Assembly (NCBI GenBank): GCA_020055645.1
Contig: CM034546.1
Location: 27,218,001-27,282,000 of the forward strand
Reading direction: 5' to 3'
Origin: Tomocerus qinae
Taxonomy: Eukaryota; Arthropoda; Collembola; Entomobryomorpha; Tomoceridae
DNA: 64,000 bases
Part shown: in pieces, positions 1-58,972 of the stretch
How positions within the stretch are numbered: the first letter of the stretch is position 1
How the letters are laid out: each line of letters starts with the position of its first letter
Notes under the pieces: model-generated
Database searches by the model: none
What the model was told of the DNA's origin: nothing
Seen by the model: only the letters and a program-made list of their open reading frames with translations
Program-made: the position numbers and the translations under genes

Positions 1-1115
1 TCTTCGCCGTCCTTTAAAATTTTATTCAACCATTCCCTCAAAGTTTCGCCACAAATTTCCATTTTTATGTAAAATCCAGTTACTAGGCTATTACTAGCAG
101 AAACGAAGCATCCTCCAAAAAACTCTCTAGCAATAGCTGAAATTTTGTTAGTATGGTCATCCCATTGAAGTATTTTCATCATCTTATCAGTCGATAATGA
201 AAATTTGTCAGAGGATTTGTACTTAACAACATTTGGGTGATCTAGTTTTGCTTGATTCCTCAACTCCCTTAAAATGCCTACTTCATCAGTGTCGCCAAAG
301 CGTTTTCTGTTCGGAATGATTTTGATAGCATAAATCTGATGATCTACTGTGTCCGATGCGGCAATAACAACTCCGAAAGACCCGCTGCCTAATACTTTAT
401 TGGTTGTGTAATTCCATCGTTCGATGACATGCAGAAGATTCTTTTTATCTGCAAATACTCGATTTTGGGCATCTTCAATTATCTTTGAAATTGTTACTGA
501 GTCTGCTCCAAGAATTAGCAAAGCCGTTTCGACCGTTGTGCAGTGCTCTTCAAATTCTAATTGTGTAGCATCTTTCGGTTTTGCATAATGTTTCGTACGG
601 TTTCGAATATCTCGAAGTTTTATCAACGCATTTTTTTCATCGTCGTTTAGTTTTGTTTCATGCGGCTCCCAACGGAATTCCAATAGCCATTTAACACAGA
701 GTGGAGTATCCCATTTCGTTATGTCCCGAGAGTTGATCTTCTCTTGTTCTTCTTCGCGCCATTTTTTATGGGGGTGAGTAATAAAGAAATCCTCCTGAGA
801 ACTATTCTCCCATTTCTGACATTTTTCCACTAAATTGTTTTGAATGTATTCAGTAAATCCCTCTACTAATGCATCTATTTTCACTCCATACTTGTCATCA
901 ACATCTAAAATGTTTATTTTCCCATATAAATGATACTCGAAACCAAAAATGGTATTTTTGACTTAGTAAAACGAAATTATTTCATATGGTAATATTAATT
1001 AATTTATAAATTTTCTTCATTTTAAGAACGATGGAATGATATTAGTAAATTACGAAAATTTTATACATAAGTTAATCGAAAATGAATTTAAAAGCTTACC
1101 CAAATTTGCATCCAT
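1..1115 (-). CDS. HEPN-kinase gene, 5' part (runs off the left edge)
   Basis: The first coding exon is 1100-1115 (ATG at 1115, 16 nt, MDANL then one base) followed by a GTAAGC donor. The second exon begins at 904 after a TTTTAG acceptor in matching phase 1 and is cut by the window start. What remains covers the HEPN-like N-terminus with the RNRTKH (R-x4-H) motif and the kinase N-lobe: GSGSFGVV glycine loop, YAIK lysine and the FYIKMEIC hinge region. The HRD and DFG motifs lie outside the window. Every base here matches 57858-58972, the copy whose kinase exon carries a premature stop, but the matching position is left of base 1, so I cannot tell whether this copy shares it. HEPN and kinase calls rest on motifs seen; the function is not known. 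Confidence 0.8.
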
Positions 1116-3010
1116 CCTCTCAAATAGATTAGGCCTTCTAGTTAGTATTTCTCAATGCATTATGAAGCAATTGGAGGTGTTCTTTTCTTCAGTATTTTAT
1201 TGTTGGTAAAGGTATTTGCCTAAGATCTTCACAAAATGACACTATTATTATTTATAAAAACGTATAGCTTACATGTCTAAATATTTGAATAATTTTAGTA
1301 AATTTCCCTTTCATTATAATACAGACTACAAAAATGATGATCTAATATTTTTTAAGGACGTAATACTAATAATAAAGTACATACCTCCTACATTTTTGTC
1401 ATTAAATTTATTTTGACCCGGATCCGGAATGCTCTGAGATGGCAATTAAAATGCTAAAATCAATTAACAACCAAATATAAACTGTAACTGTAAGACAAAA
1501 ACTACAAAAGGTTGTGAGAATTTAAAACATACCCAAATTACCCACCAATATACTTCCCGATGATTCGATTGGTTTCAACTAAATTTGTCTTATCTCTGTG
1601 AAACATTTATCGGCCAGCTCGACAGAAATAAAAGCCGACCAGATTTGCTGAAGCGAAAATTATGATCATTTTATAATAAATGATATAAAGTAGTTTAGGC
1701 TTTATTGACAAAGTTGCCTATTCTAATTAATTGTATTATTGTCTTAAATAATATAAATCTAATCTAAACCTAATGATCTGAGTATCAGTATCATTAGCAT
1801 AGATTGACACAAAATATATTAATATCCTAGAGTTAAAATTCCTTAAGATAAAACGTGTCATCCGAAATATTTTATGAAAATTTTAGTACTTAGATGGTTA
1901 TATATTATAGTATATAGTTTATTCAATGCATTCTTTGTGCAAAGTGTTTTCAAGCTCATATATAATGCGCTTTAGGATTTCGCATGTCGTAATATCGCAA
2001 CTTTACCTCGTTGGATTGGTCACGCTGGCACTTTTATCTATATCACATTGAAACAAATTAACCATTCGATGACAATACTCCAAGTGTATAAAATTTTTAA
2101 TATATATATACATCTAAACCTGTACATAATTAAAAATCTAATGCGTAATTTCGACATCATAACTTCTAACCATTATAGCTTAAAAGCATTTCTTCAACAG
2201 CAGCGTCAGTTTTCAACTATTTAATACTAAATGAATTGCATACTAATTCGATTTTATCGGCTGTATTTGTAAGTGTATAGTACTTATATACGAAAGCTTA
2301 CAAAAAGTTGTCTTGTGTAAAGGATTTTTTATGATCTCTATACATACATACCTAAAATTTATAAAAAACCATTCATTATAAAGGAAATAATAGTATGTGG
2401 ATGGAATCTGGAATTCACCAATATTTGAAACTTGATTGGTATTTTTTGTTTTTCTGAATGGTATTGTTTTGTTTGGTTAATGTTTTTCGGATATTAAAAA
2501 TTATGATAATACGACATGGTTTGTTCAGCTTTTAATGAACAGTTAGCAAACATTTAGTTATTAAACACATGTTGTGTGGTGTATTGGGATGAAATGTAAA
2601 ATAAACGTTTGTGAATATCCAAAGTATATCAAGCAACAGTATAAATATTAACATTTATATGAAGTAAAAGTACTTATATGACTGAATGATAAGATAATTT
2701 TAATCTGCCTGACAAAATCCCTTTTCTCGGTCGGCATTTATAGACGGGGCGGTGTAATGTCCGGTCTAAATATGTGCTTGTACAACTGTTGTTATGTTAA
2801 ACAATTAATTACAATCATTTTATTGTAATATTAGTAATGAAACCAGATTTTACATTACCTATGTATGAATATACATATCACTTTTACCTATGTCCTGCTA
2901 ATGGACATAATAATTATACTACATAACAATTTTTATATTTACCACCATTTGCATCTTCTTCTGTTTATTCGAGTTCCACTAAACGTTGCTTGCAATGAGA
3001 AAACGAAATT
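1116..3010. other. 5' flank of the HEPN-kinase gene, no gene seen
   Basis: AT-rich DNA paralogous to 33540-35320, 23387-26580 (with insertions) and 58973-60870. It contains a short open stretch near 1385-1440 that looks like a 54-nt upstream exon (acceptor TCTCAG, donor GGAG/GTATGT, coding for a peptide ending NKFNDKNVG). The same stretch recurs in the other copies, so it may be a 5' exon or an untranslated leader. Nothing else supports a gene. Confidence 0.45.
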
Positions 3011-4455
3011 CGTTACAACGAAGTAATATTCGTTGTAATAACATGTAAGTAGTCTACAGATATCACATTTTGCATTTACAATAACAATTTACACCGAGTT
3101 GCCCCTTAACTTGAAATGTTATAAGAAAATTTAAACACAACTCCCCTCATCTAACCAGACTAACCATCCATTCATTTGAATTACACACAATATGACCAAC
3201 TATGGTAATGGTTGGATGGTTACGGGTTAAATTCTGGACAAAAGTTAAGATCATAATTCAAACTTTGACTCCAAAATAGATATGGGTAAGTCTGGAAATG
3301 TGACAAAATTATTGTAAATTTTGGTTCCAAGTATAATGGTAAAATTCCGGTTAAAATCGGGTATTTTATTTTAACCACCATAAATATCTAAAATTGAATT
3401 GAGACAAAATTTAAATTAATTACAACAGATAAAAATGTTAATTGTATAAAAATAATAAATATAAAAATAATAAAACAGAAAGTATAACAAATTATACTAT
3501 ACGACTCATATTATGTTATAAAATTTCGTCCTTTTCTGGGAATTTAGGAGGTTCAAGTACCGCCAACTCTGGATACGTGCCCAGTGCCCATATATCCGTT
3601 CGCCCTTGACAACGGTTATTAAGACTTTTATTATCTCATTCTTTAAGCTTTGTTGAAATTGGATTCATTTTACCAAAAGAACAGTTTTCTACTTATACTT
3701 GTAAATCATTATATTTTACGAGCAAGGGGCGCTTCTTGCTCTCGTTGATGGTCCCCAGACTGTGTATTAATAATTTAAAGATAGTGCCGTGAAGGATAAA
3801 AGTTTCGTGTCTTGTGGAAATGTGACTAAATTCTAATTAGGTAAATAATAAGTCTAAGAAGTACTTTATGGTGCAGTTATTTTTCGATTTGTTTTTTCAA
3901 TAAATGCATGATAAGCAGTTGTGTTTTAAAAATATTATGTTGATAATCATTAACCACGAGCACAATTCAAAATACCGTCAGCTTTCCTTGTTGCTACTGA
4001 AAATGAATAAGTTTTTCTCCATCTATAATGTCATGGATAAATGGCCCATATAATCAACATAATATTCATAACGAAACAGTTAAATTAGAGTTTCTAGATT
4101 TATCTACTATCCGGCCGAAATCAAAATGAGCTTTGGTACAATTTTCGCGCGAATAATACGGTTAGTTTTCTGTGCATATACTTAGGTGGTGCTTAGGTAA
4201 AATATATCATCAATCAATGTCATTAAACTAATAGCTGCGAAGTGCAGAATAAAATAGTACCACCTAAGTATATGCACAGAAAACCAACCGTATTATTCAC
4301 CAAATCGTACCAAAGTTCATTTTGATTTCGGCCGGATAGAAAGTATACGTTTTGGTACATTGGTTTTTGCACAATAACACTGGAATAAAGCCAACAACTT
4401 GTTCAGGGGCAGTGTATTACGATAAGTAGAATGTATTTCAGATACGACGATTTTT
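3011..4455. other. Segment present in block A but not block B
   Basis: After the shared stretch ending near 3020, block A and block B stop aligning until about 4992 versus 36581. Block A has roughly 1.9 kb here where block B has about 150 bp. Apart from the foldback element at 4107-4339 I see no gene or RNA. Either block A gained the DNA or block B lost it. Confidence 0.5.
4107..4339. mobile_element. Foldback/MITE-like inverted repeat
   Basis: The ends begin CTATCCGGCCGAAATCAAAA and close with the reverse complement; the arms extend about 90 bp each with a few mismatches, around a loop of about 55 bp. No coding capacity. I could not find a convincing target duplication, so the superfamily is open. 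A second copy is at 61964-62196 only because that region repeats this one. Confidence 0.7.
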
Positions 4456-4990
4456 TGTTATTTTATATTATTTTATATTAATTTACATTATTTTATATTA
4501 ATTTATATTATTTTATATTAATTTACATTATTTTATATTAATTTATATTATTTTATATTGTTTTATATTAATTTACATTATTTTATATTAATTTATATTA
4601 TTTTATATTAATTTACATTAATTTATATTATTTTATATTAATTTATATTAATTTATATTAATTTTTATTGTTTTGTATTAATTTATTTTAATTCATATTA
4701 ATTTTATTAATTTATATTAATTTATATTAATTTATATTAATTTATATTGTTTTATATTAATTTATTTTATTTTATATTAATTATATTAATTTATATTATT
4801 TTATATTAATTTATATTAATTTATATTAATTTATTTTATTTTATATTAATTCATATTAATTTATATTAATTTATATTAACTTATATTAATTTATATTGTT
4901 TTATACTAATTTATATTAACTTATATTAATTTATATTGTTTTATATTAATTTATATTAACTTATATTAATTTATATTATTTTATATTAAT
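4456..4990. repeat. AT-only tandem repeat, (TTATATTAATT)-type
   Basis: About 535 bp made almost entirely of TTTATATTA, ATTTTATATTA and AATTTACATTA variants in irregular 10-11 bp steps. The equivalent at 62314-62848 is the same apart from one T-run length. Block B lacks it. It lies just downstream of the IR gene stop. Confidence 0.9.
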
Positions 4991-5253
4991 GAGACAGAAG
5001 TTTACACTTAACCTAAACAGTAATATTTTTTACAAAAGCAAGTTCTTTCCTAGTCGCCAATATGGCACTCAGTGAACTTTGTGCAGTTAGTGGCCTGCCT
5101 TCAAATCTCCATCATGTCGCTGAAAATAAAATAAAAATGTTATTAAAAATAGGTTGAATAATATCATATTGAATAATTTTGTATATTTCAGTTCTACTTC
5201 TACTAGTTGCTAATAAAATAAAACCGAAATTAATGTAACGCTTAAAATATGCT

Positions 5254-7601
5254 TTAGTATTTTCTTACGAAGTTGATATTTACTTTGTCCGCCGGAAACA
5301 CACGCGAATACCTCTTCGAATATCTTTGGTGACGAGGTTTTAGTTTGCTAAAAAGAATGACGACGTTTATTTTCAGCATCAATCTAGAGTGCCACAACCA
5401 TTCCAGAAGGAACGTTATGAATGATCCAAGTAGTAAGTATCCACAAACGAAAAAAATAGTATGGATTTTCATCGACAGACTTATAGGCAATGTCTGAGAT
5501 TCTCTATGCTTCAGTTTGGAATGGGATATTATATTTTTCAAGTCAAGAATAAAATCGAATTGTTCCTTGAAATAATGTAGAATACCTCTCTCTTGCACGA
5601 CTTGAAACAAAGATTTGAATACATAACGGTAGCAATTTATGAAACGATAAGGCATTGGAGTAGCAAGATCTGTTTCCTTTACAGTCATGCAAATTCCGTC
5701 AGATGATACTTTAGATGGAATTAAGGGCACAGTGTGGTGACTTCTCTTTGTATAGTATACACTAAATAGTTTCATTGAGAAGTCTGTCAAAACTTTCCAA
5801 TTAAATGTAAAGTAGTTACCTTTTTTGTGCTTAGGTTTTCTATCGGTTCGCCAATTATATATGTGGACACTTGAATTCATCTTGTCCAGAATTTTATATT
5901 TTTCAAAATATTCGTTTCTCTGATCGTTAATATTCCACCGCCTGTCTTTCAGCCAGAACATTTTATATCCATTTTCCACGAGATCTTTAAAGTCCACAAA
6001 TTGCTTTCTGTCTGGTGGAGCAATAATCTCGCTTGTTATCCACGTTTCGTATTGAGTAGCAATTACAAATCCCATGAACACAATTACCAAATACAAAATG
6101 GTTCTTCTTTTATTGGGAACTCCCTGATTTAAAAGGACGGCTGTTGTGGATACAAAAATAAACTCTAATTTCTTGTAGAAAGTAGAAATTCGAAAGCCTA
6201 AAGCATAAAATGAAATCGGGAATAGCGAAAATATCAGCCACCAGCAATAGTCATCAAATGTATTTTGAATCAGAACTGTCAAAGGGATGTCCGCGAATCG
6301 AAGGTTGGCTTCGCAGTAATATGGAATCATCTCATCGAAGTATTCAATAGAACGAGTTGTATACCATTTCTGAATATAATTGTCTCTGTAGGGAAATGAC
6401 ATCAAAATGTATCCACATCGACGACGTTCTTGTTTTAGATTTGCATATCGCCATGTATAGTTGGCAGTGAAGTTCAATATTTCAGACATCAAATCAAAAG
6501 TTCTCACTGTATTTCGACAATTCCCATCTCTACTTTTACATCTTATCATTTTTCTTGGATTATAGAACGGAAAAAAAGGATATACTCCCCCGATTTGCAT
6601 TCCATGAAGATTTCCGTTTAAATTTTTCCAAACTCTTTCCCATTCTTCTTCGGAGTCTTCTGCTTCAATTGGATGATAAGTTAAAGACTCATCTTTGTAG
6701 AGAACCGGCGCATAAATCGAATATTGATATCCAACTTTTATAGCCATTATAAAGAGAGGAGCTCCCAATTCATAAGTGATGTTTGCTTGCCATTCTGGAT
6801 TCAGCCATTTCAATTCATCTTTGATGACGACTATGAATCTCGAATCCCGACGATTTATTTCTTTTCCAAAAGGAATGACTGGAGTTTTTAAGTCAGGGTC
6901 TGGCTCCATTAGAATATTTACAGTGCAGGAACTTCTAGAGAGATCCCGTGGATTATCTTCATGACGACCGAAGTGAGTTTTATTATATTTTGATGTTGCC
7001 AATGTCCATGGTTGGCCATTTTGGTTAGACAGGATAAAATCTGTCTGCCATTCGGATTGATGGGAAGTAATCATGTTAAAATCACAATTACTGTAGAACG
7101 ACAAATTTCTAAAGCAGTTGATGTTGTTTATAATAACAGAAATTAAAAATGGTACAACTGGATGCAGGAAATACATTTTAACACGAATTTTGCTCAGTTA
7201 TGTCTTCACCGGTGAAATACCCAAAGTAAATGAAAGAATGTTAATTCAGTTTTAAATGTTGTATACCTAGCCATTGAGGCACCAATGAAGTAGTCAAGGC
7301 TGGCAGTAGCAAAATAGCAACCAGCGACTGTCAAATGTCTTTAACCTCAAATTATAAAACATATACCATGAAATTCAAAATAGTTCTCCCAATTATTAAC
7401 AATAATCGGCTGCCTTATTCCTTGTAATACATTGGCGCCTCTTCTCATAAGCATTCTAACATTGTTCAATTCTAACGTCCTAAACAATGCAGTGCAGAGA
7501 AATAATTTTAGAACGTGGAACCAAAAGTTATGTATGCCCTGGTAGTATTGATTACGTTTAGGCAATTTGGGATTCAAATTTTTTGTGGTTGTATTACAAT
7601 T
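5254..7601 (-). CDS. Ionotropic receptor (IR family), copy A
   Basis: A ligand-gated cation-channel subunit of the iGluR-derived IR family, expected in the membrane of chemosensory dendrites. The main exon is 5254-7157. In the 640-codon frame beginning at 7176 it shows M1 (about residues 310-330), a pore loop (337-350), M2 (357-380, running into TQYETWITSEI) and M3 (570-595), with ligand-binding halves on either side. The ATG at 7176 is probably not the start: a CATCCAG acceptor lies just after it, and an upstream exon 7367-7601 (acceptor CTCTTTTGCAG, donor ATG/GTATATG) ends in phase 1 and joins it in frame. Exon 7367-7601 encodes a segment ending NNWENYFEFH. Still earlier exons, including the start, were not found. 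IRs are very divergent, so no subfamily or ligand is assigned. Confidence 0.85.
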
Positions 7602-10147: not shown

Positions 10148-14314
<4,167 letters not shown>

Positions 14315-15099
14315 GTTATTTCTTCCCAAATGATTATTTTGTGATCTTCAATTACTGTGACACTAAAAATTAAAACCATATTAGATTAGACTGACAAATA
14401 GGCACTGCATATACGAAATTGACAGAAAATGAAAACTATCTTTGATCTTTAGTTAATTTCAAAGGTTAGGTTGTAACCTGTTGCTTACCGGTTGTCTCTC
14501 CTGCTAACATTGCTTTCGCTGTTGACAACTGTAAATTTATTATTTAGGTGTCATCTAATCCCCTTGTAACACACGAAGGTAAGCAATGGTAATTAATATT
14601 AATGATTTATGTAGCGCTGGATATAGCATTCGTGCTAGCTAATAACGTTTTCACTTATGTACCCCAAACGTATACCTTCACTTTCACTTCATGTCATGTA
14701 CTAAATTTTACATACGAAGTATGCATTATGCATTCTGTTCTCCTATCAAAATGTTCTCTTATTTATTTCTACATGCATCAGTTTAATGCAAAATAGGTTA
14801 ACTTTTTAAGACAGATTTGTACCTTGGATTTGTTCGAATTTTATAATTTTAATATTTATTCACCTAAGATAATGAATTAATTACATTTACTAATTGATTT
14901 GTGGAGTTGATTGTTACTGGAATAAATAATAATAATTATAGTCAAACATGTATGAATAACAATTATAACATAAATTAGAGTTATATTATTCATTTCCCAA
15001 AATACGTCAAATGTTCTGTGATAGTTTCGGAACTTTTAAAATGGGTGTTGAACGACTGTTAATTCGCCAGTTAATTGTGTCTTAGTATCGAAGTTTTTG
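14315..15099. other. GPR107-like promoter side / 3' UTR of kinase-Hsp70 gene
   Basis: Contains the 5' flank of the GPR107-like gene at its left and the 3' UTR of the composite gene at its right. A minus-strand AATAAA signal is at 14855-14860, about 240 bp past the stop at 15100. The small plus-strand ORF 14602-14796 has no recognisable content. Confidence 0.45.
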
Positions 15100-18000
15100 T
15101 CATTTCTCAAGGCTGTGAATTTCTTTTAACATCTCCGTGATTTCTCTCCTTTTGTGTTCGTTAATATTTTCTGTTTGTTGATTGACGTACACTTTCTCCT
15201 GGCCATTACTAGTGAATATATATCCTTTGGTTGATAATAGACCCGAATGGTCGATGTTGAATACGATTTGTCCAGGATTGATGTAAGAATGAGAATTGAA
15301 ATGGGATTGAATTGAATAATTACCTAAATGAGAACGTCGTCCTTGGATTTTTGATACACTTACAGTTGAGCTCGGTAATGGTAGATTAAATTCCTTTTCT
15401 AATGGAATTGATGTGTTTTTATCAATTATAACTGACTTGTCTGGAAATTCTAAGTAAATTTCGTACTGTAAGGCTTCAGAAACGGAAAAATTAGTACGTT
15501 GCATAATTTCTGCGGCATAGTATATCGCTCCGTTAACAACTGCAGTGATAAAGGGTGTCTGTAGAACGTTTTTGCAGAATTTTTTAGTTCCACTTTCATC
15601 CAGACAGGTAGTAGACTTACATTTTCCAGATTTGACTAACATTCCGTAATTAACTGTGACCTTTGATTTTTCAATTGCTTCATGTAACATAAGTTCATTA
15701 TCTGTAACACTTGCGAAATAAATTCTACTCATTGTCTTCTTCAGTCCTCCTTTTTTCAAATCTGGTAACAAATCTGAGCTGCAAGAGGATAGCATCTTTA
15801 TTTCTCTCTCGGTGACTCTAAAAATTGAGACTGAATCAATTTCTGAGGAAGAATTGTGGCATTGGACCAGTAAGTTGACATTTTTAGTTGTACCAATCAG
15901 TCTTGCCTCAGAAAAACGAAAAGTGACAGCGGCGGCAGCAGATTCGCTCAAAAGTTTCACGATTTCAAATCCTGCCAAAGTGGCACTATCTTCAACCATC
16001 TGTCTCTGCACGTGATCAAAAGCGTTTGGAACACTTATCACGCATTTGTAAAAATCTTGATTAAAATATTTACTGGCTGTTGACTTGATATATTCAAATA
16101 TCAACGCCACAATTACGTGAACGTTGAGTTTCTTTACGGTTCCCATTACATTTGTCTCATAAACTTCCCCAACGCTGTTAAGTAAAATGTTTTCCATATT
16201 TAACCCTCCCTTTCCACTGAGATAAAGTTCTTCAGCTCGGTACCCAATACAAATCCGGTCACATAAGTTGATAAAATTTGGTATTTTAGTTCTGGTCGTT
16301 GTTTGTTTGTAAAGTTGAGGATTTCCGTTTTGGTAGATTCCAAATCGAAATCCAGCCAGACCAAATTGAATTCCTAATATTGAAGATGTTTGTGATTTAG
16401 TTTGCTGATTTAATTTCGCGAAGATTGTTTTGAAAGTACGAATTGTTTCGTATTCTCTATTTATATCATCTGAAAGAGTTTTAGCGAAATGGTCTACTGA
16501 GTTTGAGCCAATTGGATAATTTGGAAATTCCTTGAAAAACATATTGATTGCGTTTTCTTTACCAGTTTTGTGCCAATTATTTAGCAAAGCTTCATGGAAT
16601 TCATTTCCTTTGGTACTGCTTTCCAATTGTGTCTTGTAAAAGTCCACAGCACGTCTCACAGTTTCTTGCAATTTCATATTCTGCATTTTTAATTGAAATA
16701 TTTTCTTCACATGATTTTGGTAATAAGCAGTTACCTTTTCTTCCAGTAGTTTCACAAATGGACTGATCCATGTCTCATTTTTGATAATGCATTTATTCCG
16801 AAGTTTCTGTATTACATCTTTGAAGAACGTATCATGATTCTTTGCAAGTACTTCTTCAGAGCTAATTTGATCCAGATTCTCCATTAATTTTTGGTATAAT
16901 TGAAAAGACTCTTCCACTAATTCATTTATTTTTAATTTGCATTCGGCTATTTTTAGTTCCCTCCCATTTGATTCTTTTTTAATTCGCTCGATTGTTTCAT
17001 TTTGAGCAGCTAGCAACAATGTTTGGAAGGCTGTTCTAAAATTTTGGTCGTTTTTGATGTTATCAAACTTCTCTTTGATTGTTTCAATTAAAAGATTTTT
17101 TTCAGATTCAGAGTTTTCTAATGTTCCGAATATATCATCCGAGTTGTAGTAGGTTTCTAGATATTCAAGAGCTTGTGACAAAATCGATTTTTTATTCTCT
17201 TCAATGATTTTCATACATTGCAATCCCAAAGATTCAAAATTTTTAATTGCAACTATCCTAAGCTGTGTAAGCTCAAAATCCAACTTGGTTTTATATTCGT
17301 ATTCAATGATATCTGGTACGTCTTTTAATTCAGCCAAAAACAAGTTTCTTATTTTACTTTCGGCGTCACCTATCAGAATTTCAAAATCTTCAGTCGGCCT
17401 TATTTCATGTTCAATGCTTGATAACTCTTCGCTATAACAGTCTACTGCCCTTTCTACTGCATTTCCAAGCCGATTTATTGTTGCCGACTCATTTTTAATG
17501 TTTTCTATTTCTAGTTCTTGAAATATTTGGTATAAATCATTTTCTAAAGCTGAATGGAATTCTTCTGCTGTCTCATTATTAAAAAAAGCTGGACAATGTT
17601 GTTGGACATGCTTCAAAACCATTTTATGACATTCCTGTAGAGTGCTTCGGTTCATGAATGATATTTCATTTACCATTTTGGTTATTTGCAGTTTGTATTC
17701 TCTTACTGCGCTGGAATGAGCAACCTTACATTGGGCTGCATCTTTTATCGATTCCCAATGGGATTTAAGGTTAACAAAAATTGCATTTATTTCTTCTTCA
17801 AACAATTGACTGTCGTTTTCAAAACTACAGTTTTCATATTCTTTTGGAATATCTGCCAGGAATAGTGATAAGCTGTTCTTCTTCAATTCATCGTGTCTAG
17901 CCTCAATTTCCTCCTTCATGGTATCACCAGATAAAATCGTTTTCATGCCATCTATGTAAATGTCCCTTACATAATTTTTCCGTTTGGTAATGAATTCTTT

Positions 18001-19914
18001 CAAATGTTGATAATTATTTACGGTAAATGGCATTTGAAACTCCTGAAATACAATAAAATGTCATTATGTTAAAAGCAATGTTTTTCAGTTTAAATGTAGA
18101 TAGGAATTAGTGTAACGAATAAGAATAATAATGTTTTCAAAATGAATTACGATACGTTGATACGATTTATCGAAAACTCTCCCATTATACATTTTAAAAG
18201 AAACATATACATACCTTTGCATTAAAACGGAATTTTATTGGCATTTCTTTTTCATAGTCTCCTGACTGAATTCGTTTATTTGGTTCTTCCTCCGTCAGTT
18301 GCAATATTAGCGAATTCAGCCAGCTTACGTTCTGAAGTCTAATTCCTGTATTCCTGTGATATTTTATTTTCTCGAATTTTTTTGCCAAATTGATTTCCTT
18401 TGTGGGATCAAAGATTTCAGATAAGATCAATCCAAATGAAAACAAATCCGCGTGTTGACCATACTTCGCCTTGCCGTCTTTATGTTCTTCATCCATTTCA
18501 GGAGCACGATATCGGATATTCCATTCCGCGAGTGTCATTGTTTCACTCTCGTAGATTTTGCTTTGTATTGAAAGACCAAAGTCTCCGATTTTTACAGGGC
18601 TGACAAAGTTCAGGTTTGAAAAGTATATATTGTCTGGTCTCAGATCTCGATGAGTTATTCCTTTCCCATGGATGTAATTTAAACCATCAGCTATTCCCTG
18701 TCCAATTTCTTCGCTTGTAGACATTTTTGGTTCGTTACCGTCGTTTAAAATTTTATTCAGCCATTCCCTCAATGTTTCGCCACAAATTTCCATTTTTATG
18801 TAAAATCCAGCTACAAGACCATTACTAGCAGAATCAAAGCATCCTGCAAAAAACTCACGAGCAATGGCTGAAATTTTGTTAGTGAGGTCATCCCATTGTA
18901 GTATTTTCTTCATCTTATCCGCGGATAAAGAAAATTTGTCAGATGATTTGTACCTAACAACATTTGGGTGATCTAGTTTTGCTTGATTCCTCAACTCCCT
19001 TAAAATGCCAACTTCATCAGTGTCGCCAAAGCGTTTTCTGTTTGGAATGATTTTTATAGCATAAATCTGATGATCTACTGTGTCCGATGCGGCTATAACA
19101 ACTCCAAAAGACCCGCTGCCTAATACTTTGCTGGTTGTGTAATTCCAACGTTCGATGACATGTAGAAGGTTTTTCTTATCTGCAAATACTCGATTTTTGG
19201 CATCGTCAATTATCTTTGTTATTGTTGTTGGGTCTGCTCCAAGAATTAACAAAGCCTTTTCAACCGTTGCGCAATGTTCTTCAAATTCTAATTGTGTAGC
19301 ATCTTTTGGATTTGCATAATGTTTGGTTCGGTTTCGAATATCTCGAAGCTTCATCAACGCATTTTTTTCATCATCATTTAGTTTTGTTTCATGCGGCTCC
19401 CAACGGAATTCCAATAGCCATTTAACACAGAGTGGAGTATCCCATTTTGTTATGTCCCCTGAGCTGATCTTCTCTTGCTCTTGTAAGCTCCATCGTTTGT
19501 GAGGGTGAGCAATGAAGAAATCTTCCTCAGAACTGTTTTCCCATTTCTGACTTCTTTCAACTAAAACGTTTTGAATGTATTCAGTAAATCCTTCTACTAA
19601 GGCGTCTATCTTCGCCCCATACTTGTCATCGTCATCTAAAAAGGATTATTTTGTACAAATAATTGAAGAAATACTTAAAACCAATAAAATGCTTTGGTAA
19701 TTTAAAAATAGGGAAACGAAATTATTTGAGGTTGTTTATTTCAATACAAATATTCCTTTCTCTTGTCAAACCATTTGATGATTTAATAGTAATGAACCTA
19801 TAATTAGTAAATGTCGGAAACTTTGACTTGCTTATTCTAACTCTAACCACATTTATGTACAGATATTAAGTTAACCAAAAATGAATTTCAGAGCTTACCC
19901 AAATTTGAATCCAT
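15100..19914 (-). CDS. HEPN-kinase-helical-Hsp70 composite gene, block A (intact)
   Basis: Three exons join in frame: 19899-19914 (ATG, 16 nt), 18215-19635 (1421 nt) and 15100-18042 (2943 nt), giving about 1459 aa. Exon 2 has the HEPN-like RNRTKH motif near residue 106, then a kinase with GSGSFG, YAIK (K200), HRDLRPDN (near 334) and DFG (357); FYIKMEIC and YGQHADLFSFG resemble eIF2-alpha kinases (PKR/PERK/GCN2). Exon 3 carries about 545 residues of helical repeats (each with an A-x2-FY-like start, as in guanylate-binding protein C-terminal domains), then an Hsp70-like nucleotide-binding domain (about 552-850) and substrate-binding beta domain (853-955). The ATG within exon 3 at 18033 is not a conserved start: it is TTG in block B, and a TATTTCAG acceptor precedes it. 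Hsp70 phosphate loops are lost (GIQFGLAGF and LLVQCHNSSSEID), so ATPase activity is doubtful. Catalytic kinase residues look intact. Role unknown; stress or antiviral sensing is an inference. Confidence 0.8.
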
Positions 19915-23386
<3,472 letters not shown>

Positions 23387-26850: not shown

Positions 26851-27048
26851 CCGATTTTGACAGGGGTAACAGAAGGGCTGAAAAGTATATGTTGTCTGGA
26901 CTCGATGAGTTATTCCTTTCCCATGGGTGTAAATTAAACCATCAGCTATTGCCTGACCAATTTCTTCACTTGTAGACATTTTTGGCCCCTTATCGTCCTT
27001 TAAAATATTATTAAGCCATTCCCTCAAAGTTTCGCCACAAATTTCCAT
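26851..27048 (-). pseudogene. Broken HEPN-kinase copy 2 (kinase core only)
   Basis: About 200 bp matching the kinase from the KMEICGETLREWLN segment (right) through the HRD loop region to the VKIGDFG neighbourhood (left). The HRD/catalytic-loop part has a deletion (GITHR is followed out of frame), and both ends break off into unrelated sequence. A relic of a further duplication. Confidence 0.8.
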
Positions 27049-28097
27049 CATGACTAAAGTATAAAGATAAACTGGCGCATGCGTATTGAATAATTAATGT
27101 TTTTAATAATCTACCCCAAAGCAGTTTACCCGATGTCCACCACACGCAACGTGCATTTGTCTGATGCCTTCCGAAGTTACCTGACAAAGGCACTTTGATT
27201 ATAGTGGACTTCGGGTCAACTGCTTTGAGGTACATTATTAAAAACATTTGTATGTACGTATGTTTGTATGTGTCTATATGTGTTTATGAGAATAGGGCAA
27301 GCCATGTAACGTTTCAAAACAGAATGGTCTCTTGCTTAATTTATGCATACACGCTTGCGCGTTTTAAAGGCAAAGTATGATAAAATTATTAAATTTAAAT
27401 ACACCGTTGTGTGACGTGGTAGTAGAAATTTCTTATTTCAATTAAGTATACCGTTTGTTGTACTTATTAATTTTCACTCGCATCTTGAAGTTTTGTTGTG
27501 CTATTGTGACAAGAAAGTTTTGGACTCATTGACTTTTGGGATTTGTTGATACATTTAACAATTATTTTATTTTATTATTCCAAGAACAGCTTTTTTGAAA
27601 GCTAACTAAACATTCTTCACATTAATACTACAATAAAACATTTATTTGACCGTTTTAACGGCTCTTTGCCAAATAAGGCAGACTAACGTGAAACTACTAA
27701 AGTGAATCTTTGCCTGAATTGAGAAGCAATTCAGTTGAAAGAGAGAACTTTAAGTATTAAAATGTACTGGAGGAATCGACAGTGCAGTCAAAAATAAAAC
27801 TTAAATGCAATAAAGAAAAATGAAAATAATAACAGTATATAATAAATGTATTATGTTTTTGGAACAAAGTTGAGAATAATAATGAGAGCTGGCCTGGTCG
27901 GTTCACCTTTTTATCAATTCAGGTTGACATTGCAGGTAAGTTCAAGAACCGACCATGGACTGGGAAATGCATACAGAATTAGGGAAGTTACATACAAATT
28001 ACTGGAGATGCATAGAAATTAGTAGTAGATAATTTCTTAAAACTAGAAGCATTTCTACCTAAAAGAGCCAATCTAAGATATGCTGATGGAGTCTGAT
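27049..28097. other. Unannotated stretch with one small inverted repeat
   Basis: Apart from the MITE-like element at 27096-27248 I recognise nothing here. It has short plus-strand frames only and no splice-supported exon. If the gene model ending at 28098 is right, the left part of this stretch is downstream flank of that gene. Confidence 0.4.
27096..27248. mobile_element. MITE-like inverted repeat, 153 bp
   Basis: Arms of about 44 bp: AATGTTTTTAATAATCTACC on the left and its near reverse complement GGTACATTATTAAAAACATT on the right, both followed inward by CCAAAGCAGTTTACCCGA-like sequence. The loop is about 65 bp. It sits just beside the truncated kinase copy, at the break. Confidence 0.65.
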
Positions 28098-31000
28098 TTA
28101 CATCTTATGCAACCGAGCCTTTCGAGTACGTGAACGTCTTTTTGAGACTTCACACTCGTGCAATTTTGTGAATTTTAATGGATCAACATCTCTGGTATTG
28201 CCTTGCAATTGAGTTTGATAAGCCTTAAATGCCTCAGTCGCAGCTTTTTTTGCAATTGCAGCGACGGTTGTGCTTAGATTTTGCTTAAATTCCATTTTGA
28301 TACCCTCCAGTATCGATCTGGTCTTTTGTTTTATGGATTGCATTGCTTCAAAGACATTAAAAGTTATGTTACTTCGATTTACCACTTCTGCTCCACGTTC
28401 CAAACACTGCTGGATACTTTCTAACGTTTGCATGTTTACCTTTTCCAACTCTCTTTCGTTGAAGAAATGATGCTCCACGTGAACACGCATTTTCGCTTTG
28501 TAGAATCCAAGTGCTACTAAAATGGTTTCATCAAAGGTTTTTCTTTCAATTTCTTTTGTTTGTTCATTTAAGAAGCCCACCTGTATGAGTAAAATAATAT
28601 TCAAATAAAGTTCAAATCATTCACAGCTGCCATTTCCCTCTGCCTTGATTAAAATTGTTTTCAGTACGCTAGTGGAAAACCGTTCTTTTTCATTGGTAAT
28701 CAACTTAGAAAGTATTTCCTGATTTTATCATTTGAAAATAAAACATGAACGGAAGGTGAATGTCGGGAACATGTGGCTCCGAAATATGAAAAAAATTAAT
28801 ACGTTTTGAATTATAGCGTTAGCGGGAAAACATGATTTACAGCCAACACGACTTTTGGTAAATAAATACTATCCTAAGTAATCCACTAAAGGTATGTGTT
28901 CAAGTTACCCAGCTATTAACCACCCTTAAACACATCGTTGCCTAACTTTATTATGCCTGTACCTAAAAAACTTTACAATAAAGCTCTGATTTTATTTCGC
29001 TATATAACAGTCACATTTTTGGTGCATGTGATTGCTAATTGGCAGAAATTATTTGAAATAGGAAAATGAAAAAAAGTAGATCTTCAGTGGACATTTTTAG
29101 TTCTGTTTTTCTGTGCACCTTTTTATTGTTAACTGACATCTTTGGTCAAAAAAATTCATTTTTCAGTATTTCAGGGCCTATGTGAAATAACACCAAAAAA
29201 TCGGAATATGAAATAGCTCTGAAACTACCGGCCCGATTTGGATAAAAACTTGGAACAGAAGTCAACAATCGCTGTATCTCGGACTGTTTTTTGAATTTGT
29301 GAAAATTTCGAATTTCTTCCCTTTCAAAATTACGAAAACATTTTTGAAATAGGCAGTTTTTCATATAAGGAATTGTTTCATCAAAATTCTGCCCGATTAA
29401 AAATAAAGCCCTTATAAAGTTATGGTTTATAGAGGAAAAAAATATTTCAAAATTGTTGACCTCTACAAGGTGTCAGAGGTCAAATTTTATTTTTCGTCAA
29501 AATATGCGTGTAATAATATGTATGTAAGGTGTCGTTCGCCAGCTAAAGTTATAATAAAGACCAAATAAGTACATATTTTGGCTACAGAGGACTTTATAAA
29601 GGGGTCAAAGGTCATTACTGTGAAAATGGTAATGTCTGATGCACAAGCTATGCGGCTGTAGTGCACCCGGCATTTTAGTACGAGATACAGCGATTGTTGA
29701 CTTCTGTTCCAAGTTTTTATCCAAATCGGGCCGGTAGTTTCAGAGCTATTTCATATTCCGATTTTTTGGTGTTATTTCACATAGGCCCTGAAATACTGAA
29801 AAATGAATTTTTTTGACCAAAGATGTCAGTTAACAATAAAAAGGTGCACAGAAAAACAGAACTAAAAATGTCCACTGAAGATCTACTTTTTTTCATTTTC
29901 CTATTTCAAATAATTTCTACTAGTAATAGGCCCGTTCTCCGAACGGGAAATGGGTAACCCCTTAATGGGGACGGTAGATTGTGAGTATGGATTTGCATTA
30001 TGCATTTTAAAAAGTATGAAAATTAACAGATTAGAATGTTTAAAAAATTGCCTGTAGCATTGCTACAACATCCTTCAGACGGGGAACAAATACAATGCTT
30101 ATCAAATCGACATAATAATAGTGAACCAAATTCAACATTATTTAACTAAACACCAAAATTAAAGTAAATGGTGATTTTCATTATATTATAATTAATATAA
30201 TATGGGCATAATATATAATTTTAAATCACCCCGTCATTTTAAATAACCCCGTCATTTTAAATAACCCCGTCAAAAATAACCCCGTCATTTTAAATAACCC
30301 CGTCAAAAATGACCGCGTCATTTTAAATAACCCCGTCATTTTAAATAACCTCGTCAAAAATAACCCCGTCATTTTAAATAACCCCGTCAAAAATGACCGC
30401 GTCATTTTAAATAACCCCGTCGTTTTAAATAACCACTTCATTTTAAATATACGTCATTGTGAAGAAAATTTTGTCTAAAAACCCATAATTTTCTTATTTT
30501 TACTGATAATTTGTCGCCCTCCCCCCAAATGTTTTTTGGCTACGGTCCTGGTAAATGACATCACCATTTTAAATAGACGTCATTGTAAATGATCCCGTCA
30601 TTTTAAATAGACGTCATTGCAAATGGCCCCGTAATTTTAAATAGAGGTCATTTCATATTATGACCCCGTCCTTTTAAATAGACGTCACTGTAAATGCCCC
30701 CACATTTTAAATAGACGTCATTTTAAACAACCCCGTCGTTTTAAATAATTTCGTCGTTTAAAATCACCCCTTCATTTTTAATAACCTCGTAAATCGTTAA
30801 ATCTATAAATTCCATTTTTTTAAATCTCGTCATTTTAAATAACCTTGTCATTTTAAACATTCCTGTCATTTTAAAAAATCTCTTTATAGTAAATATTTCC
30901 GTCATCTTAAATATTCCGTCATTTTCACCTCTTCATTTTAAGTAGCTCTGTTGTTTTATAATTAGCTACCACTATTTTAATTGTCCTCGTCATTTCTATC

Positions 31001-33539
31001 TATTTTCTACCGTTATATTTATTAACCCATCCTATGTCAAGTCAAGTCAACCTATTCAATCCACAACCAAATGATACTAACTAAATAAACGTTGCCTTGC
31101 TATTAATAGTTTGACTCCGCTGCGGTCGCCCCGTTCGAGGTGAAAGGGACACTAATCTCTTTACATGGCGGAGGCCTGCCTGCTTAAAGAGTAGGACTTT
31201 GTCAAATTTTTGAAATTCACTGGCAAAATATTTTCTACTAAAAAATAAAAAACTGGAGTGGCTACCGTCTTTATTGTTAAGTCGAGTAAGTCAGGAAAAA
31301 GTTTGGTAAAGATCGGATGAAAACTGTAGGAGGAGTATTTGAACAAAAAGGTGACAGATCGGAGCGTTTTCTCCCACTCCTTCAATGTTAAAATTCGAAA
31401 TTCAAAAAATCATAAAACGATTTCTATGAAAGATATCGTTTTGAAAATCGAGGTTTGGGGTTCTGACTATGATGTCCCCATCCAGTAAAAATTTGAAAGT
31501 CGTAGATTGATGTTAAAGGGGAAATGAATTGCTATTATTATACAGATAAATGCTACTGTGGTTTTATTATGGCCCATGCATACAGTGTCTGTAATGCAGT
31601 CATCTATTAGCAGAATAAATACGAATAAGACTTTGTTTGAGGTTTTGTATTTTTTATACCTTTGACCTTGATTTGACATCTACTTTAATTTGACTGAAGA
31701 CAATATTTTTGGCAAAAATAAATAAAACCAATGCATAGACACTTTCTCTGCTCTGTTTTGAAATTTGCTGTCTTAAAGGTTACCTATATACGATGTAGTC
31801 CTACTATATATGAATATGTATGAGGCGAAATTTTCAAACTAAAACCGTCATATCATGGCACAAATCATCTACCACTCGAGAAAACAAATTCTAAAGAAAT
31901 TTACATACCTGTGCAGTGACATAAATTTTTATTGGCGTTTCTGTTTCATAGTCTCTCAGATCATTCCGTTTGTTTGGTTCTTCCTCCGTTAGTCGCAGTA
32001 TTAGTGAATTGAGCCACAATACTTTCTGAAGTTTACTTCCTGTATTCCTGTGATATTTTATTTTTTCAAATTTTTTGGCCAAATTGATTTCCTTTGTGGG
32101 ATCAAAGATTTCAGATAAAATTAAACCAAATGAAAACAAATCCGCGTGTTGACCATATTTTGCCTTGCCATCTTTATGTTCTTCATCCATTTCAGGAGCA
32201 CGATATCGGATATTCCATTCCGCGAGTGTCATTGTTTCACTCTCGTTAATTTTGCTTTGTATTGAAAGACCAAAGTCTCCGATTTTGACAGGGGTAACGA
32301 AGTTAAGGGCTGAAAAGTATATGTTGTCTGGTCTTAGGTCTCGATGAGTTATTCCTTTCCCATGGATGTAATTTAAACCATCAGCTATTCCCTGTCCAAT
32401 TTCTTCACTGGTAGACATTTTTGGTTCTTCACCGTCCTTTAAAATTTTATTCAGCCATTCCCTCAAAGTTTCGCCACAAATTTCCATTTTTATGTAAAAT
32501 CCAGTAACTAGGCCATTACTAGCGGAATCAAAGCATCCTGCAAAAAACTCTCGAGCAATGGCTGAAATTTTGTTAGTATGGTCACCCCATTGAAGTATTT
32601 TCTTCATCTTCTCCGTCGATAATGAAAATCTGTCAGAGGATTTGTACTTAACAACGTTTGGATGATCTAGTTTTGCTTGATTCCTCAACTCCCTTAAAAT
32701 GCCTACTTCATCAGTGTCGCCAAAGCGTTTTCTGTTTGGAATGATTTTGATAGCATAAATCTGATGATCTACTGTGTCCGATGCGGCAATAACTACTCCG
32801 AAAGACCCGCTGCCTAATACTTTGCTGGTTGTGTAATTCCATCGTTCGATGACATGTAGAAGGTTCTTCTTGTCTGCAAATACTCGATTTTTGGCATCTT
32901 CAATTATCTTTGTTACTGTTTTCGGGTCTGCTCCAAGAATTGACAAAGCCTTTTCGACCGTTGTACAGTGCTCGTCAAATTCTATTTGTGTAGCATCTTT
33001 TGGTTTTGCAAAATGTTTGGTTCGGTTTCGAATATCACGAAGTTTGATCAAGGCATTTTTTTCATCTTCATTTAGTTTTCTTTCATGCGGCTCCCAAGGA
33101 AATTCCAATAGCCATTTAACACAGAGTGGAGTATCCCATTTCGTTATGTCCCGAGAGTTGATCTTCTCTTGTTCTTCTTCGCGCCATTTTTTATGGGGGT
33201 GAGTAATAAAGAAATCCTCCTGAGAACTATTCTCCCATTTCTGACATTTTTCCATTAAATTGTTTTGAATGTATTCAGTAAATCCCTCTACTAATGCATC
33301 TATTTTCACTCCATACTTGTCATCAAAATCTAAAATGTTTATTTCCCCAATAAATGTTTCTCGAAACCAAAAATGGTATTTTTGACTTAGTAAAACGAAA
33401 TTATTTAATATGGCAATATTAATTAATTTATAAATGTTCTTCATTTTAAGAGCGATGGAATGATATTAGTAAATTACGAAAATTTTATACATAAGTTAAT
33501 CGAAAATGAATTTAAAAGCTTACCCAAATTTGCATCCAT
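28098..33539 (-). CDS. HEPN-kinase gene with short helical C-terminus, block B left
   Basis: Start exon 33524-33539 and kinase exon 31909-33329 are open and intact (479 codons together: HEPN R106-H111, K200, HRD 334-336, DFG 357, APE 383-385). The kinase exon ends ACTGCACAG/GTATGT in phase 0. No helical-Hsp70 exon follows. Instead an exon at 28098-28580 (acceptor TTTTACTCATACAG, phase 0) encodes 160 residues of helical sequence resembling the repeats in the composite gene (ALGFYKAKMRVHVEHH, KAATEAFKAYQTQLQG) and a basic tail ending KARLHKM. Joining them gives about 639 aa across an intron of about 3.3 kb full of repeats. The kinase part is firm; the splice to 28580 is inference from phase and homology. 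Confidence 0.65.
29044..29919. mobile_element. Large foldback element, 876 bp with ~239-bp arms
   Basis: The left arm 29044-29281 (AGAAATTATTTGAAATAGG to CAATCGCTGTATCTCG) is repeated as a near-perfect reverse complement at 29681-29919, around a loop of about 400 bp. Both arms contain CTGAAACTACCGGCCCGATT. No transposase frame. Arms this alike suggest recent movement or ongoing arm conversion. No convincing target duplication was found. Confidence 0.85.
30226..30990. repeat. GTCATTTTAAATAACCCC minisatellite
   Basis: From about 30226 to 30460 the sequence is a tandem array of AACCCCGTCATTTTAAAT alternating with CCCCGTCAAAAAT spacers; from there to about 30990 the same GTCATTTTAAAT core recurs irregularly (often as TTTTAAATAGACGTCATT). 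An apparent minus-strand peptide with repeated GLFKMTG is simply this array read in one frame, not a gene. Confidence 0.9.
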
Positions 33540-40595: not shown

Positions 40596-40606
40596 CCCTC
40601 CTCAAA
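40596..40606 (-). promoter_or_regulatory. Polypurine tract
   Basis: TTTGAGGAGGG on the minus strand directly adjoins the LTR start TGTAAAG, the standard position for the plus-strand DNA priming site of an LTR retrotransposon. Confidence 0.75.
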
Positions 40607-40618
40607 CAATATAGGGAG

Positions 40619-48973: not shown

Positions 48974-53134
<4,161 letters not shown>

Positions 53135-54020: not shown

Positions 54021-57000
54021 TTAATTGTTTCTTAGCATCGATGTTTCATTCAATTTCTCAAGGCTGTGAATTTCTTTTAACATCTCCATGATATCTCTTC
54101 TTTTGCGTTCGTTAATATTTTCTGTTTGTTGATTGACGTACACTTTCTCCTGGCCATTACTAGTGAATATATATCCTTTGGTTGATAATAGACCCGAATG
54201 GTCGATGTTGAATACGATTTGTCCAGGATTTATGTAAGAATGAGAATTGAAATGGGGTTGAATTGAATAATTACCCAAATGAGAACGCCGTCCTTGGATT
54301 TTTGATACACTTACAGGTGAGCTCGGTAACGGTAAATTAAATTCCCTTGATAATGGAATAGATGCGTTTTTATCAAATATAAACGACCTATCTGGAAATT
54401 CTAAGCAAATTCCGTACTGTAAGGTTTCAGAAATCAAGAAATTACTACGTTGCATAATTTCTGCGGCATAATATATCGTTCCGTTAACGACGGCTGTGAT
54501 AAAAGGTGTCTGTAAAAGTATTTTGCAGAATTTTTTCGTCCCACTTTCATCCAGGTAAGTAGTAGATTTGCATTGCCCGGATTTGACAAGTAGTCCGTAA
54601 TTAACTCCGACATTTGATTTTTCAATAGCATCGTGTAAAATGAGCTCATTATCTGTAGCAGATGCGAAGTAAATTCTACTCATTATGTTCCTTAGCCCCC
54701 CTTTTTTCAAATCTGGTAAGAAAGCTGGGCTGCAGGATGATATCATTTTTATTTCTTTCTCAGTGACACTAAAAATCGACACTGAGTCAATTTCTGTGGA
54801 AGACTTGTGACATTGGACAAGTAGGTTTACATTTTTAGCTATACCAATCTGTCTTGCAAAACGAAAAGTAACAGCGGCGGCAGTAGATTCGCTCAAAAGT
54901 TTCACGACTTCAAATCTTGCCAAAGTGGCACTATCCTTAACCATTTGTCTCTGCACGTGATCAAAAGCGTTTGGAAGGCTTATCACGCACTTGTAAATGT
55001 CTTCTTTGAAATATCCTGTGGCGGTTGACTTAATATATTCAAATATCAGCGTTACAATTACGTGAACGTTGAGTTTTTTTACGGTTCCCATTACATTGGT
55101 CTCATAAACTTCGCCAACGCTGTTAAGTAAAACATCATCCATTTTAAAGCCTCCCTTTCCATTAAGATAAAGTTCTTCTGCTGAGTACCCAACATAAATC
55201 CTGTCAGATAAGTTGACAAAATTTGGTATTTTAGTTCTGTTCGATGTTGGATAGTAATGTTGAGGATTTTTGTCTCTGTAGACTCCAAATCGAAATCCAG
55301 CCAGACCAAATTGAATTCCTAATATTGAAGTTGGGGATTTAATTTTCGCGAATTTTGTTTTAATAGTACGAATTGTTTCGTATTCTCTATCTATATCTTC
55401 TGAAAGATCTGTAGCAAAATGGTCTACCAAGTCCATTGGGTAATTTGGAAATTCCTTGAAAAACATATTGATTGCATTTTCTTTAGCAATTTTGTGCCAA
55501 TTATGTAGCGAAGCTTCATGACATTCAATTCCTTTGGTACTGCTTTCTAACTGTGTCCTGTAAAAGTTCAAAGCATCGCTTACAATTTGTTGTAACTTCT
55601 TATTCTGTATTTTCAATTGGAATTTTTTCTTTACACGGTTTTCGTAATAACTCGTTACCTTTTCTTCCAATAATTTCACAAATGGGCTGACCCATGCCTC
55701 ATTTTTTATAAAGCATTTATTCCTTAGTTTCTGTATCACATCGTTGAAGAACGTATCATGATTCTTTTCAAGTACTTCTTCTGAGCTAATTTGTTCCAAA
55801 TTGTCCATCAATGTTTGGTAAAGTTGAAATGCCTCATCCACTTCTTCATTTGCCTTTAACTTGCATTCAACGATTTGTAGCTGCCTCTCATCTAATTCTT
55901 CTGTAATTCGCTCGATTGTTTCGTTTTGAGCAGCTTCTAGCAATGTTTGGAAAGCTGCTCTATAATTTTGATCTTTCTTGATGTCACCAAACAAATCTTT
56001 GATTGCTTCAATGAGAATAGTTACTTCAGAGTTTTCTATTCTTCCATGAATGAATATTTCATCTGAGTTGTAATAAGGATCTAGATATTGAAGAGCTTCT
56101 GATAAAATCGATTTTTTATTCTCTTCAATGATCTTCATACATTGCAATCCCAAAGATTCAAAATTTTTAATAGCAACAGTTTTAAGTTCTGTAAGCTCAC
56201 TGTCTAACCTGGTCTTAAATTTATGTTGGGTGTTATCTGGTACCTTTTCTAATTCAATCAAAAACGGACTTTTTATTTTACTTTCGGCTTCACCTACCCA
56301 AATTTCAAAATCTTCATTTGGTCCTATCTCATGCTCAATGATTGCCAACTCTTGTTTATAACGGTCTTTTGTCCTATCTAATGAATATACAAGTCGAACT
56401 GTCGTTGCTGCCATATTTTTACTGTTTTCTTTATCTAGCTTTTGAAATATTTGGTTTAAATCAGTTTCTAAAGCTGAATGCAATTCTTTTTCCGTCTTCT
56501 TATTGTAGAAAACCGGAATATCTTGTTGGACATGCTTCAAAGCCATTTCATGACATTTCTGTAGAACGCTTTGTTCCATAAATGATTTTTCATTAAGCAT
56601 TTCGGTCATCTGCAGGTTGTATTCTCTTACTGCGCTGGAATGAGCAACTTCCCATTGGGCTGCATCTTTCTTCAACTCCCAATGTGATTTAAGGTCAACA
56701 AAAATTGCATTAATTTCTTCTTTAAGCAGTTGAATATTATTTTCGTAATTACAGTCTTGATATTCATTGGGAATATCCGCCATGAACAGTGTCAAACTGT
56801 CCTTTTTCAATTCATCATGTCTAACCTCAATTTCCTGCTCTGTAGCATCCCCGGATAGAATCATTTTCATGTCATCAATGTAAATGTCCTTAACATAATT
56901 TTTCCGGTGTGTAATGAATTCTTCCAAAAGCTCGCCATTATTATTTACGGTAAGTGGCAATTGATATTCCTGAAATAAGGTAAAATATCATTATGTTAAA

Positions 57001-58972
57001 ACAAATGTTGTCAGTTACAGGTAAAAAGGAGTGTAAACGATAAGAATTTTAATGTTTTCAAAATCAATTAAACAGTTGCGGTTGCGGTTAAAGGAAATTA
57101 TGGAAAAAACCAAAAAGAAATTTATCAAATACCGCAACAATATCAGTGATGATGACAGATTAGCCTATCTTTTATTCTCTAAAAGGAAATAACTAACCCT
57201 TTTGACTTTGCAAGGTACTCTGGCCCTTCAAAGAAACTCAGAGTCGAATAGTATTACTATGACAAAAATACTCGTGATCTTGTTGATACGATTTATGAAA
57301 AACTAGAACCCATTACATTTTAAAAGAACTATATGCTTACCTGTGCATTAAAACGGAATTTTATTGGCATTTCTTTTTCACAGTCTCCTGACTGTATTCG
57401 TTTATTTGGTTCTTCCTCTGTCAGTTGCAATATCAGCGAATTCAGCCAGCTTACATTATGAAGTCTACTTCCTGTATTCCTGTGATATTATATTTTCTCA
57501 AATTTTTTGGCCAAATTGATTTCCTTTGTGGGATCAAAGATTTCAGATAAAATCAATCCAAATGAAAACAAATCCGCGTGTTGACCATACTTTGCTTTTC
57601 CATCTTTATGTTCTTCATTCATTTCAGGTGCCCGATATCGTGTATTCCATTCCGCGAGTGTCATTGTTTCATTCTCGTAAATTTGGCTTTGTATTGAAAG
57701 ACCAAAGTCTCCGATTTTGACAGGAGTAACAAAGTCCAGGTGTGAAAAGTATATATTGTCTGGTCTTAGGTCTCGATGAGTTATTCCTTTTCCGTGTATG
57801 TAAATTAAACCATCAGCTATTCCCTGTCCAATTTCTTCGCTAGTAGACATTTTTGGTTCTTCGCCGTCCTTTAAAATTTTATTCAACCATTCCCTCAAAG
57901 TTTCGCCACAAATTTCCATTTTTATGTAAAATCCAGTTACTAGGCTATTACTAGCAGAAACGAAGCATCCTCCAAAAAACTCTCTAGCAATAGCTGAAAT
58001 TTTGTTAGTATGGTCATCCCATTGAAGTATTTTCATCATCTTATCAGTCGATAATGAAAATTTGTCAGAGGATTTGTACTTAACAACATTTGGGTGATCT
58101 AGTTTTGCTTGATTCCTCAACTCCCTTAAAATGCCTACTTCATCAGTGTCGCCAAAGCGTTTTCTGTTCGGAATGATTTTGATAGCATAAATCTGATGAT
58201 CTACTGTGTCCGATGCGGCAATAACAACTCCGAAAGACCCGCTGCCTAATACTTTATTGGTTGTGTAATTCCATCGTTCGATGACATGCAGAAGATTCTT
58301 TTTATCTGCAAATACTCGATTTTGGGCATCTTCAATTATCTTTGAAATTGTTACTGAGTCTGCTCCAAGAATTAGCAAAGCCGTTTCGACCGTTGTGCAG
58401 TGCTCTTCAAATTCTAATTGTGTAGCATCTTTCGGTTTTGCATAATGTTTCGTACGGTTTCGAATATCTCGAAGTTTTATCAACGCATTTTTTTCATCGT
58501 CGTTTAGTTTTGTTTCATGCGGCTCCCAACGGAATTCCAATAGCCATTTAACACAGAGTGGAGTATCCCATTTCGTTATGTCCCGAGAGTTGATCTTCTC
58601 TTGTTCTTCTTCGCGCCATTTTTTATGGGGGTGAGTAATAAAGAAATCCTCCTGAGAACTATTCTCCCATTTCTGACATTTTTCCACTAAATTGTTTTGA
58701 ATGTATTCAGTAAATCCCTCTACTAATGCATCTATTTTCACTCCATACTTGTCATCAACATCTAAAATGTTTATTTTCCCATATAAATGATACTCGAAAC
58801 CAAAAATGGTATTTTTGACTTAGTAAAACGAAATTATTTCATATGGTAATATTAATTAATTTATAAATTTTCTTCATTTTAAGAACGATGGAATGATATT
58901 AGTAAATTACGAAAATTTTATACATAAGTTAATCGAAAATGAATTTAAAAGCTTACCCAAATTTGCATCCAT
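54021..58972 (-). CDS. HEPN-kinase-helical-Hsp70 composite gene, block B (one nonsense codon)
   Basis: Exons 58957-58972 (ATG), 57341-58761 (1421 nt) and 54021-56969 (2949 nt) have intact splice sites (CAG/GTAAGC donor; TTATTTCAG acceptor) and matching phases. The kinase exon has one in-frame TAA at 57488-57490 (codon 430, AAA in the paralogs), leaving a 429-residue HEPN-kinase product without the last kinase helices unless the codon is a sequencing error or is read through. The helical-Hsp70 exon downstream is fully open (about 982 codons), so any inactivation is recent. The position of the block A exon-3 ATG is TTG here, showing that it is not an independent start. The Hsp70 domain again has degenerate phosphate loops (GIQFGLAGFRFGVY, LLVQCHKSSTEID). 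The C-terminus is longer than in block A, ending TSMLRNN. Confidence 0.75.

Follow-up and report, generated by a model that had tools for sequence, protein, structure and literature searches.

A predicted HEPN-kinase-helical-pseudo-Hsp70 gene in a springtail genome and its relation to an atlastin-Hsp70 scaffold family

Our analysis of a 64,000-nt stretch of the Tomocerus qinae genome (the window; C1:27218001-27282000 of a searched 334-Mb assembly of 115 contigs) suggests that block A (Table 1) is one composite gene, as the original prediction proposed: the sequence evidence supports the order HEPN domain, protein kinase, helical region and Hsp70-like region in a single predicted chain. In this gene model, the HEPN-kinase part occupies the position that is held by an atlastin-like GTPase in related genes nearby. 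Its product would most plausibly act as a modular sensor of stress or of viruses, in which a scaffold would gather a kinase and an RNase.

Results

The donor, acceptor, phase and length originally given for block A are correct: its three exons join in phase across the predicted 18215/18042 junction into a chain of 1459 aa with a terminal stop only. In a ranking of the window's 3046 minus-strand GT sites by generic consensus weights, the exon-2 donors of block A, block B and copy C came 20th, 1st and 8th, respectively. The exons of A and B align in gapless 60-column blocks that are 0.72-1.00 identical, with few indels; the introns show many gaps, and conservation drops at the intron borders. 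Between A and B, our own Nei-Gojobori script gives a dN/dS of 0.14 in exon 2 and 0.36 in exon 3; dS is alike (0.33 and 0.36, respectively), which is consistent with joint duplication of the two exons. Taken alone, the 33 codons at the start of exon 3 show no significant constraint.

The strongest support for the predicted exon join comes from the diverged paralogues L012, L020 and L024: at all five distinct junctions read, exon 3 starts in phase 0 with E/D-x-Q (EFQM in A, EYQL in B, DYQM in L012, ESQT in L024 and ERQQ in L020). The methionine near the start of exon 3 in block A is retained in L012, but is Leu in B (the codon being TTG, as had been claimed), Thr in L024 and Gln in L020; it is therefore not conserved.

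Table 1. Coordinates of block A, its copies and its domains in the window, and related loci in the genome
Feature	Position	Strand	Remarks
Block A exon 1	19899..19914	-	start codon; 16 nt; phase 1; counterparts 58957-58972, 33524-33539, 1100-1115
Block A exon 2	18215..19635	-	HEPN and protein kinase
Block A intron	18043..18214	-	AAG/GTATGT ... TATTTCAG/GAG; phase 0
Block A exon 3	15100..18042	-	helical repeats and Hsp70-like region; 980 aa and stop
Swt1-type HEPN (exon-2 residues 1-150)	19184..19633	-	PF18731
R-x4-H motif RNRTKH	19319..19336	-	conserved in aligned rows covering HEPN
Protein kinase domain	18266..19141	-	PF00069, E 4.7e-33; catalytic residues present
About six atlastin-type three-helix units	16399..18012	-	collinear with helical part of L011
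Hsp70-like region of exon 3	15103..16386	-	Pfam and DnaK matches; ATPase-residue alignment
Block B exon 2	57341..58761	-	in-frame TAA at 57488-57490
Block B exon 3	54021..56969	-	helical and pseudo-Hsp70; open
Copy C HEPN-kinase exon	31909..33329	-	open
Candidate third exon of copy C	28098..28580	-	160 aa, helical; related to class II genes
Broken kinase-exon copy D	22450..23127	-	further fragment 26902-27054
Left-edge part of another block B copy (exons 2 and 1)	1..1115	-	
Helical and canonical-type Hsp70 loci	L010, L011, L013-L015, L017, L018, L021, L023		

The same junction is indeed present in block B, as had been predicted, but block B is not intact: an in-frame TAA, overlooked in that prediction, forms codon 424 of exon 2, 50 codons upstream of the donor. 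L004 (B''), 57.86 kb to the left of B, carries the same TAA and is also frameshifted, and L002 (A'), 57.86 kb to the right of A, is frameshifted, so that of the composites seen, A alone is intact. The pairs A/A' and B/B'' reflect an approximately 57.86-kb tandem duplication, which is also visible in the window itself, where positions 1-6142 and 57858-64000 (6142 vs. 6143 bases) are 99.95% identical, with 0 mismatches and 3 gaps; part of this duplication may be an assembly artefact. A and B are about 84% identical overall, but in the Hsp70 end and in a portion of the 3' flank (15172-15352 and 14784-14963) the identity of single blocks rises to 93-100%, which raises the possibility of gene conversion. 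The candidate third exon of copy C is 34-57% identical to L005-L009 and is without Hsp70. The stretch between the kinase and helical exons of copy C contains a minisatellite and a 242-bp inverted repeat that is nearly perfect (29044-29918 and 30218-30944).

The HEPN domain matches PF18731 (HEPN_Swt1; curated cutoff 27.5 bits) with 28.0 bits in B and 28.4 in C, and with 26.0, just below the cutoff, in A; among the relatives, the HEPN-family matches of P0002 and P0003 stay under the cutoff and that of P0004 is marginal (E 0.086). The R-x4-6-H motif claimed for this domain is borne out: in a six-row alignment drawn from the 36 matches listed for exon 2, RNxxxH is present in all five rows that cover the HEPN domain (the window protein and P0001, P0002, P0003 and P0004). 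We regard the domain as a predicted RNase. The structure model of exon 2 is of low confidence (pLDDT 44), and no HEPN structure was recognised in its VIA list. A survey of HEPN domains reports a Swt1-type HEPN of more bacterial character, with 46 copies in Daphnia (PMC3710099).

The kinase domain agrees with the resemblance to eIF2-alpha kinases noted earlier: its best PDB matches are PKR (5.4e-22; the alignment stops short of alpha-G) and PERK (1.6e-21), with calmodulin-domain kinases from about 1e-17. It shares with PKR and PERK, by eye, a long beta-4/beta-5 insert, and differs from them in that no dsRNA-binding or luminal domain was matched in block A. K194, E213, H328-D330, N335 and D351-G353 are invariant across the six aligned rows and include the beta-3 Lys, the alpha-C Glu and the HRD and DFG motifs. 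A 41-row tree places A, B and C with P0001-P0005 (support 100/99). Among named sequences, those closest to the HEPN-kinase exon come from Folsomia candida: P0003 (36% identical over 98% of exon 2) and P0005 (43% over 64%). P0003, annotated as 'Interferon-induced, double-stranded RNA-activated protein kinase, partial', is likewise a HEPN-kinase, with the motif RNDIKH; it differs in its C-terminus, which lacks a Hsp70 or GBP Pfam match and by eye consists of a low-complexity stretch and about 100 aa.

Within about 0.4 Mb lie genes in which a single uninterrupted ORF encodes an atlastin-like GTPase, helical repeats like those of block A and Hsp70 (Pfam E-values in such an ORF are 4e-40 for PF02263 and 1e-154 for PF00012), and we therefore consider the helices of block A to be atlastin-type. 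Adjacent helical and canonical-type Hsp70 matches were found at nine loci in C1 26.89-27.41 Mb; the three of these that were scanned (L011, L013 and L018) carry the atlastin-like GTPase upstream in the same ORF, and Pfam finds no PF02263 GTPase in exons 2 and 3 of block A. The helical region of block A is collinear with its counterpart in the atlastin-like/Hsp70 ORF L011, and three-helix bundles are the top VIA-align rows for this region, from a weak model. Atlastin itself combines the PF02263 GTPase with a three-helix bundle; block A shares the three-helix unit and differs by its replaced GTPase, its many units and its terminal Hsp70.

The Hsp70-like end of block A (PF00012, 47.4 bits against a cutoff of 20.6, 83 residues covered) resembles Hsp70/DnaK in a partial nucleotide-binding domain and a weak SBD-beta match. 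D10, T13, K71, D199 and the Gly loop (in residue numbers that we assume for Hsp70, here and for E175) are intact in all four canonical copies (L010, L011, L013 and L018) and lost in all seven members of the other class, to which A and B belong; the replacements are Q, L, S/N and C, with no DLGGGT Gly loop; E175 is retained in all 11 Hsp70 ends aligned. About 100 aligned positions, which we take to be lobe II, are missing from the second half of the nucleotide-binding domain, and there is no lid, because the chain does not extend past the end of the DnaK match. With its ATPase residues lost, the Hsp70 part is probably unable to run a chaperone cycle, and is unlikely to be a working chaperone.

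Across the genome, 15 of the 25 kinase loci whose 3' ends were examined are followed on that strand by a helical match (hand count, 1.5-kb flank, tandem duplicates A' and B'' included); the other ten (L033, L036-L040, L044, L050, L054 and L057) have none in that flank, and two weaker matches (C1:128.56 Mb and C5) stand outside the count. Hsp70 was found behind four kinase loci only, A, A', B and B'', which have the order HEPN-kinase-helical-pseudoHsp70. No Hsp70 match was found downstream at 13.19, 23.54 and 27.30 Mb (7.6, 7.0 and 3.5 kb searched), and for the other eight kinase-helical loci, the 1.5-kb flank and a genome-wide exon-3 query were used, with no adjoining Hsp70-end match among the scored candidates of that query. 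L036-L039 are HEPN-kinases with no helical match in the stretches searched; L034 is a HEPN-kinase with a short helical exon; and L041-L043 and L045-L049 have kinase and helical units, with no HEPN or Hsp70 match in the stretches searched. From this family picture, the N-terminal module looks exchangeable on one scaffold.

Discussion

The domain order, the conserved intron position, the constraint on the exons and the homologous scaffolds are established at the level of sequence. The parts of block A are known; neither their combination nor the atlastin-Hsp70 scaffold family turned up in any source searched. Searches of openly licensed papers listed no such fusion, and a word-based protein search with exon 3 gave no match. 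IRE1 and RNase L also place a kinase and a HEPN-type RNase in one chain, their KEN domain being kin of HEPN (PMC3710099); in those proteins KEN is C-terminal to the kinase, whereas in block A a Swt1-type HEPN is N-terminal and the kinase is followed by a helical array, the atlastin-type rod with its pseudo-Hsp70. The prokaryotic CoCoNuT systems offer an analogy only: they carry Hsp70-like NBD/SBD parts, with low ATPase activity expected, alongside HEPN RNases, and their authors argued that a comparably degenerate Hsp70 would suit RNA binding, but they are multi-gene McrBC GTPase systems, and the accessible part of the account mentions no kinase (PMC11090510).

We tentatively favor a reading of block A as one modular gene in which the HEPN-kinase took the place of the GTPase, and whose kinase/RNase would be activated by triggered clustering. 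The HEPN-kinase exon would have been placed upstream of the helical scaffold, instead of the atlastin-like GTPase; the helical rod and pseudo-Hsp70 arm may bind a trigger, e.g. foreign, misfolded or aggregated protein; binding would cluster the protein, and clustering would lead to kinase autophosphorylation; and the kinase could then switch on the HEPN RNase or phosphorylate eIF2alpha, so that translation would stop, in the manner of PKR, IRE1 and RNase L. Exon 3 has changed faster than exon 2; together with the tandem and the broken copies, this would suit a stress or defence gene with fast turnover, but also decay.

Among the alternatives, it is rather unlikely that the fusion is real but the kinase is its sole output, with HEPN as an RNA-binding or dimerising part of a PKR-like protein without RNase activity: the complete catalytic residues and the top PDB matches to PKR and PERK would suit such a protein, and certain motif-less HEPN domains are thought to be non-catalytic (PMC3710099), yet the RNxxxH motif is conserved in every row that covers the domain. 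We consider it improbable that the composite is a functionless, decaying by-product of tandem duplication near the atlastin-Hsp70 cluster, with A as the last open copy; the broken A', B and B'', copy D, the left-edge fragments and the 57.86-kb duplication itself point that way, but A is open across all 1459 codons, and the A/B dN/dS values indicate constraint, part of which may predate the breakage of B. It is very improbable that two neighbouring genes are present, with a HEPN-kinase that stops at 18215 or a little beyond and an independent helical-Hsp70 gene whose start lies in exon 3: HEPN-kinases lacking a helical match (L036-L039 in the stretches searched, and F. candida P0003), GTPase-helical-Hsp70 ORFs and the lack of clear constraint at the start of exon 3 would be compatible with this, but the gap between the exons is only 172 bp, GT...AG is found in every copy read with phase 0 retained in diverged paralogues, the exon-3 Met is not conserved, and kinase and helical matches are paired at 15 of the 25 kinase loci.

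If the modular-sensor reading of block A holds, the same helical-Hsp70 arm would be combined within one genome region with either a GTPase or an RNase-kinase, making this a case of effector exchange on one scaffold, seen with broken copies beside an intact one; arthropods would gain a candidate for PKR/RNase L logic; and block A would allow one to examine how an Hsp70 can pass from a chaperone role to one in sensing or as a scaffold. The family of clustered atlastin-Hsp70 fusions deserves attention by itself. More speculatively still, springtails might possess a new class of modular cytosolic receptors, in which a common arm of atlastin-type helical repeats, ending in an active or dead Hsp70, carries swappable N-terminal effectors and the Hsp70 senses non-self or damaged protein; the effectors would then be the atlastin-like GTPase in one clustered gene set and the HEPN RNase-kinase in another.

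Other elements in the window

A Copia-type LTR element at 40295-46982, with identical 301-bp LTRs and one 1942-aa ORF whose C-terminal part is envelope-like by weak, sub-cutoff Pfam matches, is a recent insertion. Two further genes are duplicated in the window: one at 5254-7197 and 36778-38802, ionotropic-receptor-like by eye and with no Pfam match over cutoff, and a multi-exon gene at 13000-14300 and 48868-53434 that is possibly GPR107/108-like by eye.
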